A stretch of 64,000 nt of DNA from an uncultured Spirochaetaceae bacterium (GTDB lineage: Bacteria; Spirochaetota; Spirochaetia; Sphaerochaetales; Sphaerochaetaceae): assembly GCA_944389025.1 (NCBI GenBank), contig CALXKU010000014.1:1-64000 (forward strand). The letters are read 5' to 3'. The notes under the pieces were generated by a model that worked only from the letters and a program-made list of their open reading frames with translations, made no database searches and was not told the origin of the DNA. A program made the position numbers and the translations under genes. Positions 1-8,632 of the stretch are shown in pieces (the stretch's first letter is position 1; each line of letters starts with the position of its first letter).

Positions 1-729
1 AATCAAGGGCGTAGAAGCGATTTGAAAGAACTGATTTCTGCCAAATCTGATAGAAATTCGTCCTCTGATAATGATTTAACCTGTTTCCCAGCGGAAACAA
101 GTTCAGGTGAACAGATTCACACATTTAAAGACTTTTGTGAGGCAATAAAGGTTCCTTATAGCACCGCTAATCACTGGCTTGTCCTCTATGACCCTGATAA
201 AGACTATCTCCTTACAACGGAAGAATATAAGGATGAAAGGACTAAGGAGCTGGACGCTTTCTATGAATCCGTGCGCAAGAAGAGGGAGAAGATAGCGGGG
301 TACATACCGGAGGCGAAGGACATCAACCTCAAATGGAACAGGAACATAGTAGCATGGACCGATGCCGTTGAGAGGAAATTCGATGAGTGGCTTATAGCCA
401 AGGGGTATAAGGATATCGACCCCGATAAGGTTCTGTCGCTGCCTGCGTCTGAAGACTACGACGAATTCGGTCTATTCGGGTTCGAATACCTCGACAGCCT
501 TGCGAAGAAGTGCACCAAGAAGGTCTCAGGTGAAGGAGCCAAGGAATATCTGAACATGACCAAGGAGTACGGTCCGAGGATTCCCAAGGGGGTTGATACA
601 CGCAACATACTCAGGATTCCCGTGATAGTCGAGGCCGAGTTCGACGACCTCGACACGTTCCAGAAGAGGGAGACTGCGAAGGTGCTGTCTGAAATCATCA
701 TGAAGCTTGCATTGGAGGAGAAGAAATGA
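1..729 (+). CDS. Hypothetical protein of Mu-like element (5' end may be cut)
   Basis: I do not recognise a named family. The reading frame is already open at base 1, so the gene may start outside the window; within it the only plausible start is a TTG at 22, with only a weak Shine-Dalgarno match. Residues about 30-60 (TFKDFCEAIKVPYSTANHWL) look like a helix-turn-helix of the kind found in phage replication or small-terminase-like proteins, and the rest is charged and helical, ending in LEEKK. It overlaps the next gene by 4 bp (ATGA), so the two are probably translated together. It sits in a same-strand train that leads into the MuA-like transposase. Confidence 0.6.
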   Translation, partial: NQGRRSDLKELISAKSDRNSSSDNDLTCFPAETSSGEQIHTFKDFCEAIKVPYSTANHWLVLYDPDKDYLLTTEEYKDERTKELDAFYESVRKKREKIAGYIPEAKDINLKWNRNIVAWTDAVERKFDEWLIAKGYKDIDPDKVLSLPASEDYDEFGLFGFEYLDSLAKKCTKKVSGEGAKEYLNMTKEYGPRIPKGVDTRNILRIPVIVEAEFDDLDTFQKRETAKVLSEIIMKLALEEKK

Positions 730-1657: not shown

Positions 1658-2032
1658 ATGGGCAGCGATTACGACTATGAGGCAATGGATAAGGTGGTGG
1701 CTTTCGATTTCGATGGTGTCGTTCATAGAAACGGCAAACTCTGGAAGGGTGTTGCGATTATCGAGGATGTTCCGAATCCGGGGATTCCCGAGCTTTTCAG
1801 GAAGCTGAAGGATGCGGGGTATTCGATAGTGATTCACACCTGCAGGGCTCTGACGCCTGAAGGGCGACGAGCCGTAGTGCACTGGCTGACAGCGAACCAC
1901 ATGATCGAGCTTATCGACAATGTGACGGCCCTTAAGCCGATAGCACGGTGTTACGTGGATGACAGGGCGATCCGTTTCGAAGGCTGTGAAGGACTGTTGA
2001 ATGCGATTGAGCAGTTCGGCAAGGGGGAGTGA
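1658..2032 (+). CDS. HAD-superfamily hydrolase-like small protein
   Basis: A 124-residue protein with the motif set of a minimal haloacid dehalogenase-type phosphatase: motif I is VAFDFDGVVH near residue 14 (nucleophile Asp and acid Asp two residues on), motif II is IVIHTCRA with the Thr, a Lys lies in TALKP, and motif IV is CYVDDRAI with paired Asp. Small HAD proteins like this occur in phages and mobile elements, where they may act on nucleotides or nucleic acid ends; the substrate cannot be read from sequence. No cap domain is present. ATG 1685 is a possible shorter start. The stop is followed within 2 bases by the next start. Confidence 0.75.
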   Translation: MGSDYDYEAMDKVVAFDFDGVVHRNGKLWKGVAIIEDVPNPGIPELFRKLKDAGYSIVIHTCRALTPEGRRAVVHWLTANHMIELIDNVTALKPIARCYVDDRAIRFEGCEGLLNAIEQFGKGE

Positions 2033-2033
2033 T

Positions 2034-2378
2034 ATGGAAGAGAGAAAAATTGAGACATGGAGGCGGGGGATAATGGATACGAGCCAGAACCCGAAGAAGG
2101 CGAAAGGAACGATAAGGATCAATGCGACACTGCATACCTACATTGTGTACACGCTTGGCCGTAGAGGGCTTTCACAGGCCGTTCTGGCGAAGGTTTGCGG
2201 ATGTTCTCCTACGTTCATAAATCAGATTGTAACAGGGCGAAAGAAAAGCGAGGAGATTCAGAAGAGGGTTGCAAGAATTCTCGGTTTCAGATCTTGGGAC
2301 CAGCTCCAGTGTGCGGCAATACGTTTCGATTTCGCAATGAACGGAGGAAAGGATGGTGTCGATGGGATTCAGGGATGA
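2034..2378 (+). CDS. Helix-turn-helix DNA-binding protein (Cro/CI-like)
   Basis: A 114-residue protein with an HTH about residues 45-90 (LSQAVLAKVCGCSPTFINQIVTG), of the kind found in phage Cro/CI or Ner-like regulators. Upstream in-frame start codons exist (2001), but the ATG at 2034 has an excellent Shine-Dalgarno (AAGGGGGAG, 2021-2029) and follows the preceding stop by one base. A likely role is transcriptional control of the transposition genes just downstream, by analogy with Ner or the c repressor of Mu, although in Mu the repressor is transcribed divergently and here it is co-directional. Confidence 0.65.
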   Translation: MEERKIETWRRGIMDTSQNPKKAKGTIRINATLHTYIVYTLGRRGLSQAVLAKVCGCSPTFINQIVTGRKKSEEIQKRVARILGFRSWDQLQCAAIRFDFAMNGGKDGVDGIQG

Positions 2379-2472
2379 AAAAAGAGGCATACTCTGCGAT
2401 TGCACTCCCGGGGTAGCCTCAAGAGCAATCCTACCAGAATCCGGAAAGAAGGAGAAGAGGTATGTGGGTTGA
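2353..2472 (+). CDS. Possible 39-residue small protein bridging to the transposase
   Basis: A short open frame bridges the gap between the HTH gene and the transposase. It begins with ATG 2353 after a strong purine-rich site (ACGGAGGAAAGG, 2341-2352), overlaps the HTH gene by 26 bases and runs 11 bases into the transposase gene. The product is basic with two Cys (CDC) and no known domain. It could be a real microprotein or a leader peptide that couples translation into the transposase. The ribosome site is the main evidence, and there is no family support. Confidence 0.35.
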   Translation: MVSMGFRDEKRGILCDCTPGVASRAILPESGKKEKRYVG

Positions 2473-4549
2473 AGTAAGCGAGCTTGCCGGATGCATCGGC
2501 GTGAATCCAAGAACGATTCAAAAAAAGATACAGTCCGGAGAGATATCGGCAAGGAAAAAGGATAGAAAGAGTTACGAGGTGGATACATCATCACTCCCTA
2601 CGGAGTATCTTGAAAAGCTTCCCAGTGTGATGAAGTATGCCCTTGCTCCCGTATCTCAGTCGAAGACGGTTCCTGCCGGAGTTCTCGGCCGCACTCTGAC
2701 GAAGAAGGATAAGCTGAAGCTTGAAGTGCAGAAGTTCTACAGGGGGCTTTCTCTTGGGGATAATGCGAAAGCCAGGTGTGAGATGACGGCTGCGAATTTC
2801 GGAATCTCCGTATCCTCCGTCCGCAGATATGTCAGGGACATAGAGGAGCACGGGGTGCTAGGCAAGGATGCGCCAAAGAAGCAGAGCTCATGGGATGCCG
2901 AGGCTGTCGAATATCTCAAAGGATACTATCTATCGTTCATGAAACAGACGAACGTTGTCTCGAAGAAGGCGGCATACGATGCTGTCGTCACCAAGGCTAC
3001 AGAGAAGGGCTGGAAGATAGGCGGGAGGACGAGCGCCTATGAGATCCTCTCTGAGATTCCGCAGATTCTCATTAACTATGCAAAGGGTGGAAGCAGGGCT
3101 CTGGACAACTTCTTCTACATCAAACGTGATTGGACATCTCTCAGGCCCAGTCAGGTCTGGATAGGGGACCAGCACATATGCGACTTCTGGGTTGTGGACA
3201 AGAGCAACCCTGATAAACCCCATTACTACAGGCCGACCCTGTATGTCTGGGAGGATGGTGCTACGAGATGCATTGCAGGGCTGGCTGTTGATGAGGACTA
3301 TTCGTCTGAGACCGTTCTTGAGGCTTTGAAGATGGGTATCAGAAGGTTCGGTCTTTTCGATTGTACCTATAACGATAACGGAACGAGTGAATGCAGTAGG
3401 GCTGTGACTCAGGTCATAGATGATCTGATACTCCTTTCGAACGGCAGGAGCCAGATGAAGGACCTGTCGGAACTTTACCGCACCGAATGGGGGCACTACG
3501 TGGTCGAAGATCCTGACGGGAATCCAGTATCCGTTACCGACAATCCTGCAATTTGGAGGAGGGATTACAGAAGGATCTATGCGAATGTCAGGAACGCCAA
3601 GGCCAAGCCGATAGAGAGGCTTTTCAACACGATTGAGACAAAGATGGCACAGCGCGGAATTCCCGGACATGTCGTAACACTCAATGCCCCTGCTGATCAG
3701 AACGAGAAGGAGCAGCAGATATTGGATAGGCAGAAGGCATCGGACCAGATCCTTACGCTTGAGCAGTTCATGGTGGAGCTCATAAGGACCATAGACGAGT
3801 ACGAGCGCACATACCACTCGATGCTGAATATGAGCCCTCTTGAAATGATGAGGAAGCATATTAGTGAAGGTTGGGTTGCAAGACGTCCGGACGAGAAGGA
3901 TCTTGATTTCATCTTTCTTGCCAGGACGCAGGCGAAAATCAGGAAAGGACGAGTGATGATAAACGGTACTGAGTACATGGGAGAGGAGCTTCCAAGGGCG
4001 GTCGTGGGTTTTGCCGATGTAGGGCTTACGCTCCATGAGGGTGAGATGTGCAGCCTCCGCTATGACAGGATGGATCCTTCGAGGGCCTATGCGGTATTCC
4101 CCAACTCCCCGGTAAGGATAAGGCTGTTGAAGCCTGTCGATGCAATATCAATGTTGGATGATGATCTGATGAAAGAGGCTATTGGATGGAAGCGCCGTCA
4201 GATGGCCGCAGTCAAGGAAATATTCAGGACGCTTGAGATACCGGAGGCGGATGTTATGGAAGCTACCGTCTCAACGGAGATAGCAGAAGCCGAGAAGAAG
4301 CTGATAGCTTCAGACGATATGGCCGAGGAACCTCGAAGAACTGCAGCTCGGATTGAGATGAGGAGATCACGGAAGGAGTTCTTCTCCTCGGATTACGAGC
4401 ATTACAGGTGGTGCCTTGAAGAGCTCATAGATGGAAAAGGCTTGAAGGCCGAGGACAAGACCTTCATGGGCGAGTACGAAGCGAGAGCCAGCTACGAGCA
4501 GGAGAAGAGCATATGGCAGGCTCTCAAAAGGATGGGAGGATTGGACTGA
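2462..4549 (+). CDS. Mu-like transposase (MuA family, DDE/rve core)
   Basis: A 695-residue DNA transposase. The N-terminal 60 residues resemble the MuA end-binding winged-helix segment (VSELAGCIGVNPRTIQKKI), followed by a second HTH near 105-130. The RNase H-like catalytic core shows Asp236 in WIGDQH, Asp305 in YNDNG and Glu385 in KPIERLFNTIE, matching the D-D-E triad of MuA in order and spacing style. A MuA-type C-terminal region follows. It would bind the element ends, cut and join them to target DNA with help from the ATPase encoded next. A GGAGAAGAGG site precedes the ATG, and the stop overlaps the next start (TGATGA). The length is close to MuA (about 660 residues) and the catalytic residues are intact, so it is probably functional. 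Confidence 0.93.
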   Translation: MWVEVSELAGCIGVNPRTIQKKIQSGEISARKKDRKSYEVDTSSLPTEYLEKLPSVMKYALAPVSQSKTVPAGVLGRTLTKKDKLKLEVQKFYRGLSLGDNAKARCEMTAANFGISVSSVRRYVRDIEEHGVLGKDAPKKQSSWDAEAVEYLKGYYLSFMKQTNVVSKKAAYDAVVTKATEKGWKIGGRTSAYEILSEIPQILINYAKGGSRALDNFFYIKRDWTSLRPSQVWIGDQHICDFWVVDKSNPDKPHYYRPTLYVWEDGATRCIAGLAVDEDYSSETVLEALKMGIRRFGLFDCTYNDNGTSECSRAVTQVIDDLILLSNGRSQMKDLSELYRTEWGHYVVEDPDGNPVSVTDNPAIWRRDYRRIYANVRNAKAKPIERLFNTIETKMAQRGIPGHVVTLNAPADQNEKEQQILDRQKASDQILTLEQFMVELIRTIDEYERTYHSMLNMSPLEMMRKHISEGWVARRPDEKDLDFIFLARTQAKIRKGRVMINGTEYMGEELPRAVVGFADVGLTLHEGEMCSLRYDRMDPSRAYAVFPNSPVRIRLLKPVDAISMLDDDLMKEAIGWKRRQMAAVKEIFRTLEIPEADVMEATVSTEIAEAEKKLIASDDMAEEPRRTAARIEMRRSRKEFFSSDYEHYRWCLEELIDGKGLKAEDKTFMGEYEARASYEQEKSIWQALKRMGGLD

Positions 4550-5481
4550 TGATTGGTTTGAATGAGGTTTTTGAAGAATACAGGAGAAGGGAGAAAAGAG
4601 ACGTGTCCCAAGCTGAGTTTGCAACATTGCTAGGATGGTCCACGGCCACAGTGTCTCTGCTTCTTTCGGGCAAATACAACAGCAGTGACAGGGAAGGGAA
4701 AATCAGACAGGCCGCACAGAGGCTCCTTGGTGCTGACTATTCAGCTTCTGATATTACGACTGGGGACTGGACTCCCATATCCGTGAAAAAGGATGTGATT
4801 ATAGCGACACCTGACTTCACTGATACGTATTCCCTCTGCAACGCTCTTCTGGACGACAATGAGAGCCTTACAGCCTCAATAGGTCTTGTCACTGGAGTTG
4901 CAGGACGTGGAAAGACTACGGCGGTCAGGAAGTTCGTGGCGGATCATCCTTACAACACGATATACATACTCAACATGGGATATACGAGGTCGACACTCTT
5001 CAGAGCGATAGCCGAGGAGCTCCTAGGTAGAAGTTATGGGACATACTGGAAGAACCTCAACCTCATCCTGGAAGCTACCAGAATATCGAGGAAGGTCATA
5101 GTCATAGATGAGGCGGACAGGATGCCCCTGTCTCTTCTCGAAGACCTGAGAACTCTTAATGAATCGGGCAGGGTTCCTATTCTGCTGGTTGGCGAGCCGC
5201 TTCTGACATCTACGGTAAGGAGGGCTGACCGCATCGAGTCCAGGATCCGAAAGCCGAGAATTGAATTCAGGCCTCTCGATTACCTTTCCCTCGCCGCACT
5301 CTATCAGGAGGCGTGTGGACTGAGCCTTTCGAAGGATGTGGCGAAAACTCTTGTGAAGATATCGAATGCGGATTTCAGGATAGCTGCGAACGACATGCAG
5401 GCAATCGCGAAGTTGATGAACGTCAACCATTACAAGGTCTTGGACCAGAAGGTGCTCGATGAATATGTCAAGAGAGGATAG
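4549..5481 (+). CDS. MuB-like AAA+ ATPase (target selection)
   Basis: A 310-residue ATPase of the MuB/TniB type. Residues 18-45 form an HTH (VSQAEFATLLGWSTATVS), as in MuB. Walker A is GVAGRGKT at 116-123 and Walker B is VIVIDEAD at 183-190, followed by a sensor region with GEP. In Mu, MuB binds target DNA in an ATP-dependent manner, recruits the transposase and gives target immunity. The ATG at 4549 overlaps the transposase stop, so a longer in-frame start at 4513 is rejected. Its 3' end overlaps the next gene. Confidence 0.92.
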   Translation: MIGLNEVFEEYRRREKRDVSQAEFATLLGWSTATVSLLLSGKYNSSDREGKIRQAAQRLLGADYSASDITTGDWTPISVKKDVIIATPDFTDTYSLCNALLDDNESLTASIGLVTGVAGRGKTTAVRKFVADHPYNTIYILNMGYTRSTLFRAIAEELLGRSYGTYWKNLNLILEATRISRKVIVIDEADRMPLSLLEDLRTLNESGRVPILLVGEPLLTSTVRRADRIESRIRKPRIEFRPLDYLSLAALYQEACGLSLSKDVAKTLVKISNADFRIAANDMQAIAKLMNVNHYKVLDQKVLDEYVKRG

Positions 5482-6199
5482 GGACAATCTTTTCGGGACG
5501 TCGAACATCTTGGATCAGATGGCGCTGTTCCTGATATCGCAACCTAAGCATATGGCTAAGGAGTCATATATGAGGATTGTGTTTTCCGATGTCTCCTCAG
5601 GAATGTTCCTTTCATCTCTTATCTCTCTTGAAACCCGTGGTGCGATCATCAGACAAGATGGGATCATCAAGGCTGTCGAGGAGAACATCGGCATCAGGGG
5701 GCATCTCAGCGACAGCCTCTGGAAGGTAGCCAGGATGGAGAAGGTGTTCACCATAAAGGTTCTCTCGGATTATGTGCCTGAAGCTTCAAGAGCGTTCATC
5801 CGTGAACTCATTCAGGACTGGATCAGCCTTGGCGCGGTTAAGAAGACGGGTGTCTTGAAAGATAAGAGGTCGAACATTTTCACCGTCGTCAAAGACAGCC
5901 CCATCAGACCGAAGAAGGATGTCGGCTGGCATCGTCCGTCAGATCTGGTGGATGGCATATGGGGGATGGTTCAAGATTTTGGAAGCAGAAGGGAGACTTT
6001 CACTTCCCTTGATATCTCTGCTCGGCTGGATGTCTCGAAGAGGTATCTCGCTGACCTTCTTAGACAGTGGCGGAGCGCAGGATACATAGAAGTAGTCACG
6101 GATAAGAGAAGATGCACGGATCCTGTAATCTACAGGTGCGTGTACATAGGCGAAAGACCGAATGTCGAGACACGTTCAAGGATGAGAAAGGAGGCGTAG
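5459..6199 (+). CDS. Mu-element protein with predicted winged-helix segments
   Basis: A 246-residue protein with no named family that I recognise. Two stretches, about residues 70-135 and 165-225, look like winged-helix DNA-binding modules (the second contains SLDISARLDVSKRYLADLLRQW). It overlaps the end of the MuB-like gene by 23 bp; ATG 5459 and ATG 5465 are both possible starts. In Mu-like phages the genes after B encode small proteins acting on replication and host functions, and this one fits that position. It may help load replication factors or regulate the operon, but that is inference. Confidence 0.65.
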   Translation: MNMSREDRDNLFGTSNILDQMALFLISQPKHMAKESYMRIVFSDVSSGMFLSSLISLETRGAIIRQDGIIKAVEENIGIRGHLSDSLWKVARMEKVFTIKVLSDYVPEASRAFIRELIQDWISLGAVKKTGVLKDKRSNIFTVVKDSPIRPKKDVGWHRPSDLVDGIWGMVQDFGSRRETFTSLDISARLDVSKRYLADLLRQWRSAGYIEVVTDKRRCTDPVIYRCVYIGERPNVETRSRMRKEA

Positions 6200-6721
6200 A
6201 TGGAAAGGTCGAAGATGATAGGTCTTATTCATGCCAAGGCTCAGAATATATACCGTTGCCGCATATGCGGAAGATTTCATGCTGGTCCGATATGCCTTGA
6301 ATGCGGCTCTTCAGCAATACAGGATTCTTTGGCAGGCATCGTTTATGAAAACTTCCTCTTCTCCCTTACCGGAAAGACGAGCTGCAGGGCACTTTCGGAT
6401 CAAGAGCTTGAGAAGGTTCTGGAAAGCCTTAGCCTGATATGCCTCGAGATGGAAAAACAGAAGAGGCGGGAGGCATGGATGGCCAGGCGAAAGCTAATGG
6501 GGATTATCAGAAGCCAGGCGACAAGAATGTTCGAAGCAAATGCTCAGATACGTGTTGATGGTTTCTGTGAGAAATGCATAGGGAAGGCTCTGGAACGTTG
6601 TAACGAGAAGGAGCTCAGAAAGGTTATAGGCTGGCTCAGAAGGCTTGAAAAAAGAGGAAAGAGCGAAGGGTATACTGGAGGTAGCAATGAAAAAGGCGAT
6701 GTACCGGATAATGATAGATAG
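6200..6721 (+). CDS. GemA (Mu gp16, DUF1018)-like protein with inserted zinc ribbon
   Basis: A 173-residue protein. The pieces MIGLIHAKAQ (6-15), FLFSLTGKTSCRALSDQELEKV (52-73) and the C-terminal ELRKVIGWLRRLEK match the GemA/DUF1018 layout of Mu-like phages, where the family reads roughly IHxAK..., LTGKxS...LsdaEL..VL. Between the first two blocks lies Cys20-x2-Cys23-x8-Cys32-x2-Cys35, a zinc ribbon not usual for the family, and a further CEKC pair lies near residue 125. Mu GemA affects host gene expression and DNA supercoiling. The gene sits in the expected early region, directly after the winged-helix protein with no gap. Assignment is by motif recall, so it needs a profile search. Confidence 0.65.
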   Translation: MERSKMIGLIHAKAQNIYRCRICGRFHAGPICLECGSSAIQDSLAGIVYENFLFSLTGKTSCRALSDQELEKVLESLSLICLEMEKQKRREAWMARRKLMGIIRSQATRMFEANAQIRVDGFCEKCIGKALERCNEKELRKVIGWLRRLEKRGKSEGYTGGSNEKGDVPDNDR

Positions 6722-6941
6722 GCTGGTGGTGCTGATGCTCCATCTGCTTAGCAGTGCGATCATGGTGATGTTCCTGTGGCTGCTGTTGCCGCTGCCATTT
6801 GCCGTGGCAGCAGTATGCTGCATGGATATCACAAAGCATTTCGCTATTTATTCGCGCTTCAGATGCTTAGAGCTTGATGCGATGCTATCTGACGTGATCG
6901 GTGTTTTATTTGGAGTAGCCATGGTAATGGTTCTCACATAG
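6687..6941 (+). CDS. Small two-helix membrane protein
   Basis: An 84-residue hydrophobic protein with two predicted membrane helices (LVVLMLHLLSSAIMVMFLWL and a C-terminal VIGVLFGVAMVMVL) and another hydrophobic stretch (LPLPFAVAAVCC). The longer start at 6645 is rejected because ATG 6687 has a good ribosome site (CTGGAGG). It overlaps the GemA-like gene by 35 bp in another frame. Position in the early region of a Mu-like element could suit a host-inhibition or holin-like role, but nothing in the sequence proves this. Confidence 0.5.
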   Translation: MKKAMYRIMIDRLVVLMLHLLSSAIMVMFLWLLLPLPFAVAAVCCMDITKHFAIYSRFRCLELDAMLSDVIGVLFGVAMVMVLT

Positions 6942-6952
6942 AGGAGGCAAAT

Positions 6953-7567
6953 ATGATTAAAGATATTGATGGAACTAGATACTACCTAAAGAGTGACGGA
7001 TCTCTGGTACCGGAGTCTCAGGTAAAGGATATCGATAAGCTGCGCGACCAGGTTGTTCAGGATGCGGCCGAGAAGCTCATGGATCTGAAGACAAGGATGA
7101 TCCAGGAGAAGACGGCCGTGGTGGATGATATTCTGGAATTTCTGAATGTTTCCGCAGATCAGTACGGCGTCAAGCTTGGAGGGGATAAGGGCAATCTGAC
7201 TCTGACAAGCATAGACGGCAATATCCGTGTCGAGTATAAGAATAGCGATACCATAACTTTCAACGAGCAAATCCAAGTTGCCAAGCAACTCATAGACGAA
7301 TATCTAGATGAGCTCACAAAGGATTCGAACCCAGAACTCAAGACAATCGTCTCGGCTGCATTCCGCCTTCGCCAGGGTAGGATAGATGTCAAGAGCGTCC
7401 TTAAACTTCGCGAATACAATATAAACGATGAGAGGTGGAAGAAGGCGATGGATATCATCGATGACGCGAAGCAGATAGTTTCCACCAAGAAGTGTCTTCG
7501 CCTTTATGTGAGGAATAAGCTCACAGGAGCGATGGAGAATCAGCCGTTCGATCTGAGTGTTCTGTAA
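6953..7567 (+). CDS. DUF3164 family protein of Mu-like phages
   Basis: A 204-residue protein that matches the DUF3164 family closely along its length: the N-terminal DGSLVPESQVKDIDKLRDQ, a coiled-coil helix, then YGVKLGGDKGNLTLTSIDG, FNEQIQVAKQLIDE and the C-terminal DERWKKAMDIIDDAKQIV block. The family is found in the early region of Mu-like phages; its function is not established. An AGGAGG site precedes the ATG. The length is normal for the family, so the gene appears intact. Its presence supports reading this region as a Mu-type element rather than an isolated transposase. Confidence 0.88.
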   Translation: MIKDIDGTRYYLKSDGSLVPESQVKDIDKLRDQVVQDAAEKLMDLKTRMIQEKTAVVDDILEFLNVSADQYGVKLGGDKGNLTLTSIDGNIRVEYKNSDTITFNEQIQVAKQLIDEYLDELTKDSNPELKTIVSAAFRLRQGRIDVKSVLKLREYNINDERWKKAMDIIDDAKQIVSTKKCLRLYVRNKLTGAMENQPFDLSVL

Positions 7568-7576
7568 GAGGTGGAA

Positions 7577-8284
7577 ATGGAGTACACTCTGGATCTTTTT
7601 CCTGAAGAGACGAACCAATCTGTTGTCAGCCATTATAACCTTTCCCTGCTGGACTATTATGCCCGGCAGGGTTTCCTGTTTCTCAATACCAGACAGGTTC
7701 AAAACGTTTTAAACAAATCCTATGGCCAGATACGTTATGCGATATTCAGCTATGAACTGGATGCATTCCTGATTGATGGTGACTATCGCATAACGCATAA
7801 GGCGGTCATGGATTATATCAATGCAGAGCAGGAGAGATATGAGGAGGCATATCACTACATTATGAGTCGCAGGGAGCTCTCCGGTGTGTATGCTGCAGCC
7901 ATGGGGTATAACCTATCTAGTGCCGTTAAAGCGCTTATCACGAAGCGTTATCCGATAACGGCCATAGATGGGATTTTGGAGAAGGATAGGACATATGAGT
8001 ATGATGCTCTTCCTCAAGGAGAGACCGTGGTAAGGGACTACTACGATATAGACGGTCTGGGGCTTCCCGATGAAGCCTCTGTGGGGGATTGGGCTAGGAT
8101 GCTCAACATAGCTCCACAGAGGTTGATTCGCGATTTAAAAATGCCGAACTCCGTTTATTTAATAAATTTAAAAGCGTTTAAAAAGTATCTTGTTGAAAGG
8201 GAGTTTGTGAATGCGAACATCCCTATTAAAGAGGATAATTCGCAATCTGACGAGGAATCCTCCATGCAACTGGAATTATTCTAG
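7577..8284 (+). CDS. Last gene of Mu-like element; C-terminal QLELF
   Basis: A 235-residue protein with no family that I recognise. ATG 7577 is preferred over GTG 7571 because of its spacing from AGAGG. The middle part reads like a helix-turn-helix DNA-binding protein (DEASVGDWARMLNIAPQRLIRDL near the C-terminal third). The last five residues, QLELF, fit the sliding-clamp-binding consensus QL[SD]LF, and a similar LDLF occurs at residues 5-8. That would suit a protein that brings the element to the host replisome, but this is inference. The gene's 3' end turns AT-rich, and the repeats of the element terminus start about 50 bp after its stop. Confidence 0.6.
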   Translation: MEYTLDLFPEETNQSVVSHYNLSLLDYYARQGFLFLNTRQVQNVLNKSYGQIRYAIFSYELDAFLIDGDYRITHKAVMDYINAEQERYEEAYHYIMSRRELSGVYAAAMGYNLSSAVKALITKRYPITAIDGILEKDRTYEYDALPQGETVVRDYYDIDGLGLPDEASVGDWARMLNIAPQRLIRDLKMPNSVYLINLKAFKKYLVEREFVNANIPIKEDNSQSDEESSMQLELF

Positions 8285-8335: not shown

Positions 8336-8398
8336 TCAAAATTCCCGGATTTAGTTTCAAAATGGCGGATTTTGTGTTCAAAATTTGCGGATTGTACA
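8336..8398 (+). repeat. Three 21-bp repeats forming the element terminus
   Basis: Three copies beginning TCAAAAT and containing GGAT start at 8336, 8357 and 8378, exactly 21 bp apart. The third ends at TGTACA (8393-8398). Read inward from the right, the end begins TGTACAATCCGC, a TG...CA-type terminus like that of Mu (5'-TGTA). Mu and relatives carry about 22-bp transposase sites in series at each end, so I interpret these as binding sites R1-R3 for the upstream transposase. A weak fourth copy (AAAACAAAGGAT) may lie near 8297. The opposite end is outside the window. Confidence 0.7.
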
Positions 8399-8449
8399 AT
8401 AGTCCTTATTTTGAGCAATGACGTTACATAAGTGTGCAACGCCGAAGTC

Positions 8450-8493
8450 AATTGGTCAGCTTTTGGTCAGCTTTTGGTCAGCCGAGACCAAAA
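8450..8493. repeat. Three 11-bp tandem repeats plus inverted copy
   Basis: The unit TTTTGGTCAGC occurs at 8461-8471 and 8472-8482, with a 9/11 match at 8450-8460. The last copy pairs with GACCAAAA (8486-8493) to form an 8-bp stem with a 6-base loop. An 11-bp period places the units on one face of the DNA helix, which would suit a protein-binding array. The origin is unknown; it could be a remnant of an older insertion next to the tRNA. Confidence 0.5.
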
Positions 8494-8512
8494 TGAGACC
8501 CATCAGAAATGA

Positions 8513-8541
8513 AATAAGTCCTTGCAGTGCAAGGACTTATT
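8513..8541 (-). terminator. Hairpin downstream of tRNA-Asp
   Basis: A perfect 14-bp inverted repeat, AATAAGTCCTTGCA and its complement, separated by a single G, lies 7 bases beyond the 3' end of the tRNA. It is likely the transcription terminator or processing stem of the tRNA transcript. The U-run after it on the minus strand is weak (TTTCATTT). Confidence 0.6.
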
Positions 8542-8547
8542 CGAATT

Positions 8548-8621
8548 CGTGAGAGACGGGGCTCGAACCCGCGATCTCCGGCGTGACAGGCCAGCGCGAT
8601 AACCAGCTTCGCTACTCCCAC
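8548..8621 (-). tRNA. tRNA-Asp (anticodon GTC)
   Basis: The reverse complement folds into a full cloverleaf: acceptor GTGGGAG/CTCTCAC, D arm with GCTGGTTA, anticodon loop CTGTCAC giving GTC, variable loop AGATC, and T arm with GTTCGAGC. The discriminator base is G73, as expected for Asp. The CCA end is not encoded. A good promoter lies upstream on the minus strand. The Mu-like element end lies about 150 bp downstream of its 3' end. Confidence 0.93.
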
Positions 8622-8632
8622 AAGCAAGAAGA

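Follow-up and report, generated by a model that had tools for sequence, protein, structure and literature searches.

Conserved tandem repeats at the early-gene end of a Mu-like prophage in an uncultured Spirochaetaceae bacterium

Three bipartite repeats follow a Mu-like early operon

The stretch of DNA analyzed here (the window) comprises 64,000 nucleotides of contig CALXKU010000014.1 from an uncultured Spirochaetaceae bacterium. It opens with an operon of early phage genes, which is followed by three repeats, a short host flank, and a tRNA gene.

1 to 729, plus strand: conserved early gene truncated by the contig start; its homologue adjoins the repressor in relatives
2001 to 2378, plus strand: helix-turn-helix protein, positioned as Mu Ner (HTH_31/HTH_3)
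2462 to 4549, plus strand: MuA-type DDE transposase, 695 aa (phrog_310, E 3e-56; D236, D305, E385)
4513 to 5481, plus strand: MuB-type AAA ATPase, target-capture activator (phrog_296, E 7e-38; AAA_22, TniB)
5459 to 6199, plus strand: winged-helix-like early protein (phrog_2030, E 5e-8; homologues in relatives)
6200 to 6721, plus strand: GemA-like early protein (PF06252, E 3e-8)
6953 to 7567, plus strand: DUF3164 early protein (PF11363, E 7e-60)
7571 to 8284, plus strand: 237-aa protein of unassigned role, last gene of the operon (homologues in relatives)
8336 to 8398, minus strand: left (early-gene) prophage end with three bipartite sites of about 21 bp (conserved in 18 phages; boundary from empty sites)
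8399 to 8403, no strand: ATAGT, target duplication of 5 bp on the right (its left-hand counterpart is at G000:C31, 2088 to 2092)
8399 to 8546, no strand: host DNA separating the insertion from tRNA-Asp (from the sequence and the empty-site comparison)
8547 to 8622, minus strand: host tRNA-Asp gene (GTC), 149 bp away from the prophage terminus

The operon harbors two of the features expected of a Mu-like transposable phage, a MuA-family DDE transposase and an adjoining MuB-type ATPase. Residues D236, D305, and E385 of the transposase are invariant across 13 sequences and would correspond to D269, D336, and E392 of the Mu transposase (PMC3362531), as judged from the order of the motifs. A profile search with the transposase retrieved a chain of the Mu transpososome (PDB 4fcy, E 2e-6), and a Foldseek search with its structure model, predicted with intermediate confidence (mean pLDDT 68), retrieved TnsB and MuA transpososomes with E values of about 1e-16. 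A Pfam search of the 237-aa protein gave zero matches.

The three site copies start at 8336, 8357, and 8378 (TCAAAATTCCCGGATTTAGTT, TCAAAATGGCGGATTTTGTGT, and TCAAAATTTGCGGATTGTACA). An initial, sequence-only reading had described three repeats spaced exactly 21 bp apart; this holds for the TCAAAA half-motif (21 and 21 bp), but the GGATT half-motif is spaced by 20 and 22 bp. The distance of 52 bp from the last gene of a Mu-like operon that it gave holds for the first repeat copy, the last early gene ending at 8284. The TG...CA-type terminus, TGTACA, ends at 8398 and is followed by ATAGT. Read inward, the sites take the form AATCC...TTTGA. The copies have no 9-base exact seed in common in register; they make up the top-scoring period-21 triple of the window, an offset of a few bases being allowed, and none of 2,000 shuffles of the intergenic region equalled the score of this triple at any period from 18 to 25. 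We consider the three repeats very likely to be sites at which the transposase would bind.

The far end, the target duplication, and the empty site

The window begins with the first base of contig C14, one of the 39 contigs of the assembly, and the far end of the element therefore lies outside it. The far end was located by searching the same genome with the left-hand part of the empty site, which contig C31 (G000:C31) matches identically over 468 bases that end with ATAGT. The far end is base 2093 of this contig and starts TGTAGAATCC, the sequence after ATAGT reading TGTAGAATCCAGAGAAAGTGACACAAATAATCC. The sequence-only reading had anticipated an inverted far end preceded by ATAGT and starting TGTACAATCCGC. 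Such an end was indeed found behind ATAGT, but its actual start is TGTAGAATCCAG, and a genome search with TGTACAATCCGC as the start of the inverted copy returned only the left end itself because the sequence of the far end differs. Moreover, two sites are visible at the far end, not the expected three.

The 28 bases after the terminus at 8398 are present in single copy in six further genomes of the genus. The proposed comparison with related genomes lacking the insertion yielded empty sites in G006, G019, G061, and G035, in which the uninterrupted site runs into ...GATGGAGTTGAG (or GTTCAG) and the integrase gene on one side and into tRNA-Asp on the other. ATAGT stands at both prophage junctions and is present as a single copy in the empty sites, and the far-end prediction therefore stands. 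Repeats unaccompanied by the transposase, which would have spoken against the initial reading, were seen solely in genome G071, whose copy of the phage is internally deleted, and are absent from the phage-free genomes of the genus. Together with the far end, these empty sites support the view that the repeats are MuA-type sites, to which the transposase is predicted to bind.

The insertion is flanked by a tyrosine integrase gene and tRNA-Asp, and the repeats might accordingly be viewed as arm-type or core sites for that integrase, i.e., as part of the attachment site of an integrative element. This explanation, to which we give practically no credence, is refuted because the empty sites retain the integrase and the tRNA without the repeats; furthermore, the repeats accompany the transposase to unrelated locations. 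The host flank itself contains three TTGGTCAGC direct repeats at about 8452 to 8482, which are possible arm sites of the integrase.

The element is a Mu-like prophage with head and tail genes

Positions 2093 to 19240 of C31 encode tail-fibre, fibre assembly, tape-measure, major capsid, and protease proteins. Of these, the tail-fibre, tape-measure, capsid, and protease proteins are about 42 to 60% identical to those on contigs that bear the same kind of MuA operon together with the left end. On G073:C12 and G072:C18, both of which also carry the early operon and the left end, the homologues are arranged in the same order. Since C31 carries tail and head genes, we are dealing with a prophage and not with a bare transposon. 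The repeats had been proposed to fix the end of an unknown Mu-like element; the end and the Mu-like character stand, but the element is no small transposon. Based on the spacing in relatives, about 10 kb would be missing between C31 and C14, giving a prophage of about 35 kb, and it is likewise from the relatives that we take the prophage to be complete in the source genome. A single contig of G071 bears capsid and protease genes of the C31 type and the left end, arranged as predicted, with the transposase missing between them. The transposase region of this related prophage (G071:C76) is missing, and a 293-aa serine-protease-like gene is found near the junction.

Region 4547 to 7160 of G000:C31, with a tail-collar fibre gene on one side and a tyrosine recombinase on the other, harbors seven copies of TTGAGACATTACCGGA in both orientations, four of them exact and three with 2 or 3 mismatches. 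From its layout, this region of the Mu-like prophage is a putative shufflon-like, invertible tail-fibre cassette.

Both ends are conserved among relatives

The transposase family has 14 members among 139 genomes of the host family, and the named transposase records belong to uncultured Spirochaetales, uncultured Spirochaetaceae, and one Sphaerochaeta. Three virus contigs matched the transposase alignment, while the window transposase as a single query retrieved zero virus contigs, matches being obtained only with the alignment as the query. Eighteen left ends, the one in the window included, start TGTACAATCC and have three bipartite boxes each, with departures in G003 (TGTACTTTCC) and G327 (TGTACAATTC), and this motif is kept across the 18 phages with transposase identity down to about 36%. 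Ten far ends have in common TGTnnAATCC and two boxes; the far end of G327 was not found within the stretch examined. All complete insertions (9/9) are flanked by a 5-bp target duplication, namely, ATAGT for the window prophage and ATGGA, GTGCA, CTATC, GATAC, ATTGT, ATAGA, ATTTT, and GTAAT for the others. Relatives that are complete are between 32.2 and 37.5 kb long, and a repressor, terminase, portal, and tape measure are present; Mu-like transposable phages have about 36 to 39 kb, including genes for the head, packaging, and tail. Transposases from another family of the class (f24, E of about 1e-150) were excluded from the comparison set because, in our scan, their genes lacked an adjoining end motif of this kind.

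Two further contigs and a short fragment were noted in the course of this comparison. The 8-kb contig CALUYR010000342.1, assigned by binning to Candidatus Gastranaerophilales, encodes an early-region transposase 87% identical to that of the window and ends 1 base past the phage terminus; it is probably a misbinned phage contig. The virus contig IMGVR_UViG_2061766007_000309 is 35,881 bp long, and its ends coincide with both phage termini within one base. A piece of 896 bp with both phage ends (G074:C60:43286-44181) was considered as a mini-element and rejected, as it has no target duplication; it contains part of an apparent IS30-like gene and is a remnant of a related prophage.

Could the repeats instead mark the end of a non-phage transposon of the Tn7/CAST-like or Tn5053-like type? 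Elements of this kind also end in TGT...ACA, carry TnsB sites in tandem, and leave 5-bp duplications, the TnsB of type V-K CAST, similar in transposase fold, ranked level with MuA in the Foldseek search, and the early ATPase gave a weak match to TniB. Type V-K CAST and Tn7 elements, however, are devoid of phage genes, whereas head and tail genes lie within the element both in the source genome and in relatives, and the relatives of 32 to 38 kb carry a repressor, terminase, and portal. In addition, the early operon includes GemA and DUF3164, and no match to TniQ/TnsD was found among the ten early proteins scanned. The 5-bp duplication that brackets the element argues against a separate, nested phage as the source of the structural genes. 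We therefore hold a non-phage transposon to be very improbable.

The DDE transposase and the head and tail genes are observed, as are both ends with their 5-bp duplication, the empty site, and the conservation of the ends along with the transposase family. As predicted from these features, the repeats are almost certainly the transposase-binding sites of a Mu-like (transposable) prophage at its early-gene end. Replicative transposition, which together with the packaging of host DNA is characteristic of Mu-like phages, and continuing phage activity are presumed. It is well supported that these phages form a new Mu-like lineage in uncultured Spirochaetales and Sphaerochaeta, although the kind of phage is already known.

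Comparison with known systems

The prophage resembles Mu in the D, D, E order of the DDE residues, the MuB-type ATPase, GemA, the tandem end sites, the TG...CA ends, and the 5-bp duplication. It differs in that the similarity of the transposase is weak, the end sequence is different, and one end has three sites while two are visible at the opposite end. Furthermore, the early operon of Mu is transcribed away from the phage end, while here it reads towards it. A similar direction is found in BcepMu-type phages, whose early/transposition operon reads towards the phage end with the other modules opposite, a likeness in arrangement. In the phage collection, the closest named transposase match was that of Bacillus phage BalMu-1, annotated as Mu-like (24% identity over 45% of the protein). 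Transposable prophages of 35 to 40 kb are also known from another spirochaete, Leptospira, with TG-CA ends in many and 6-bp duplications of the B3/Tn552 type (PMC8705779). The present lineage is distinct from this B3/Leptospira type because its duplications are of 5 bp in all nine cases.

By analogy with Mu, MuA-type subunits would bind the three bipartite sites here and the two at the far end, and the ends would be paired. The transposase would then cut after the terminal CA (8398), and the 3' ends would be joined with a 5-bp stagger to target DNA brought by the MuB homologue, leaving ATAGT on both sides.

Insertions cluster near an integrase start and tRNA genes

Of the seven insertions located in the genus, four lie near the start codon of one kind of tyrosine integrase gene, at offsets of -49 (window prophage), -38, +49, and +77 bp, and by tRNA-Asp where this is seen, the tRNA being off-contig for G018 and G070, the tRNA-like stretch of G071 not being called a tRNA, and the integrase of G070 perhaps belonging to another locus. 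These insertions represent four species and both orientations within a span of about 130 bp. The loci are window 8399 to 8546 with L026:785-2092 (G000:C31), L010:90-128, L033:77-108, and L076:1532-1609. Moreover, 5 of the 12 insertions with adequate flanks are at most 400 bp from a tRNA gene (once each for tRNA-Asp, Gly, and Ala, and twice for tRNA-Phe), versus 0.19 expected from 37 to 49 tRNA genes per genome under a null that is uniform over the genome, with a single flank seen for G071, G072, G073, and G327 (p of about 8e-7, or about 2e-5 without one of the two tRNA-Phe cases, which come from related species). Elsewhere, the G025 insertion falls in a hydrolase gene, 864 bp from tRNA-Val, and that of G074 has 3 kb free of tRNA genes on both sides. 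The idea of an integration site specific to the tRNA was rejected, as the insertion points vary and fall outside the tRNA.

The insertion sites do not look random, as those of Mu are described to be, but selection may account for the pattern. Integration of the Leptospira prophages has been described as random (PMC8705779), and a Pseudomonas transposable phage has insertion hot spots near REP-like repeats (PMC5977238).

The hot spot could reflect survival in dispensable island DNA and not targeting, an explanation that we find rather likely and that concerns the hot spot only. Insertions survive better in dispensable DNA while those in essential genes are lost, islands adjoin tRNA genes, and there are insertions away from the hot spot, as in G025 and G074. 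However, tolerance alone seems a weak explanation for a 130-bp cluster around one integrase start, and the excess near tRNA genes also speaks against it, although the sample is small and the expectation treats the genome as uniform. The other explanation, which we consider possible but rather doubtful, is that the lineage is drawn in a nonrandom manner to the attachment regions of integrative elements beside tRNA genes, i.e., to the integrase promoter and start. Such an attraction may operate via the MuB homologue or a conserved early protein of unassigned role, and it would be akin to that of the Tn5053-type "res hunters," which are drawn to resolvase sites.

Significance

Overall, both ends are fixed to the base for a transposable phage lineage of uncultured spirochaetes that is without a close relative in the phage collection searched. 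The end sequences and the transposase pair represent a candidate genetic tool of the mini-Mu style for related hosts. Finally, the clustering at integrase and tRNA genes raises a concrete and testable question, namely, whether some Mu-like phages choose their targets.
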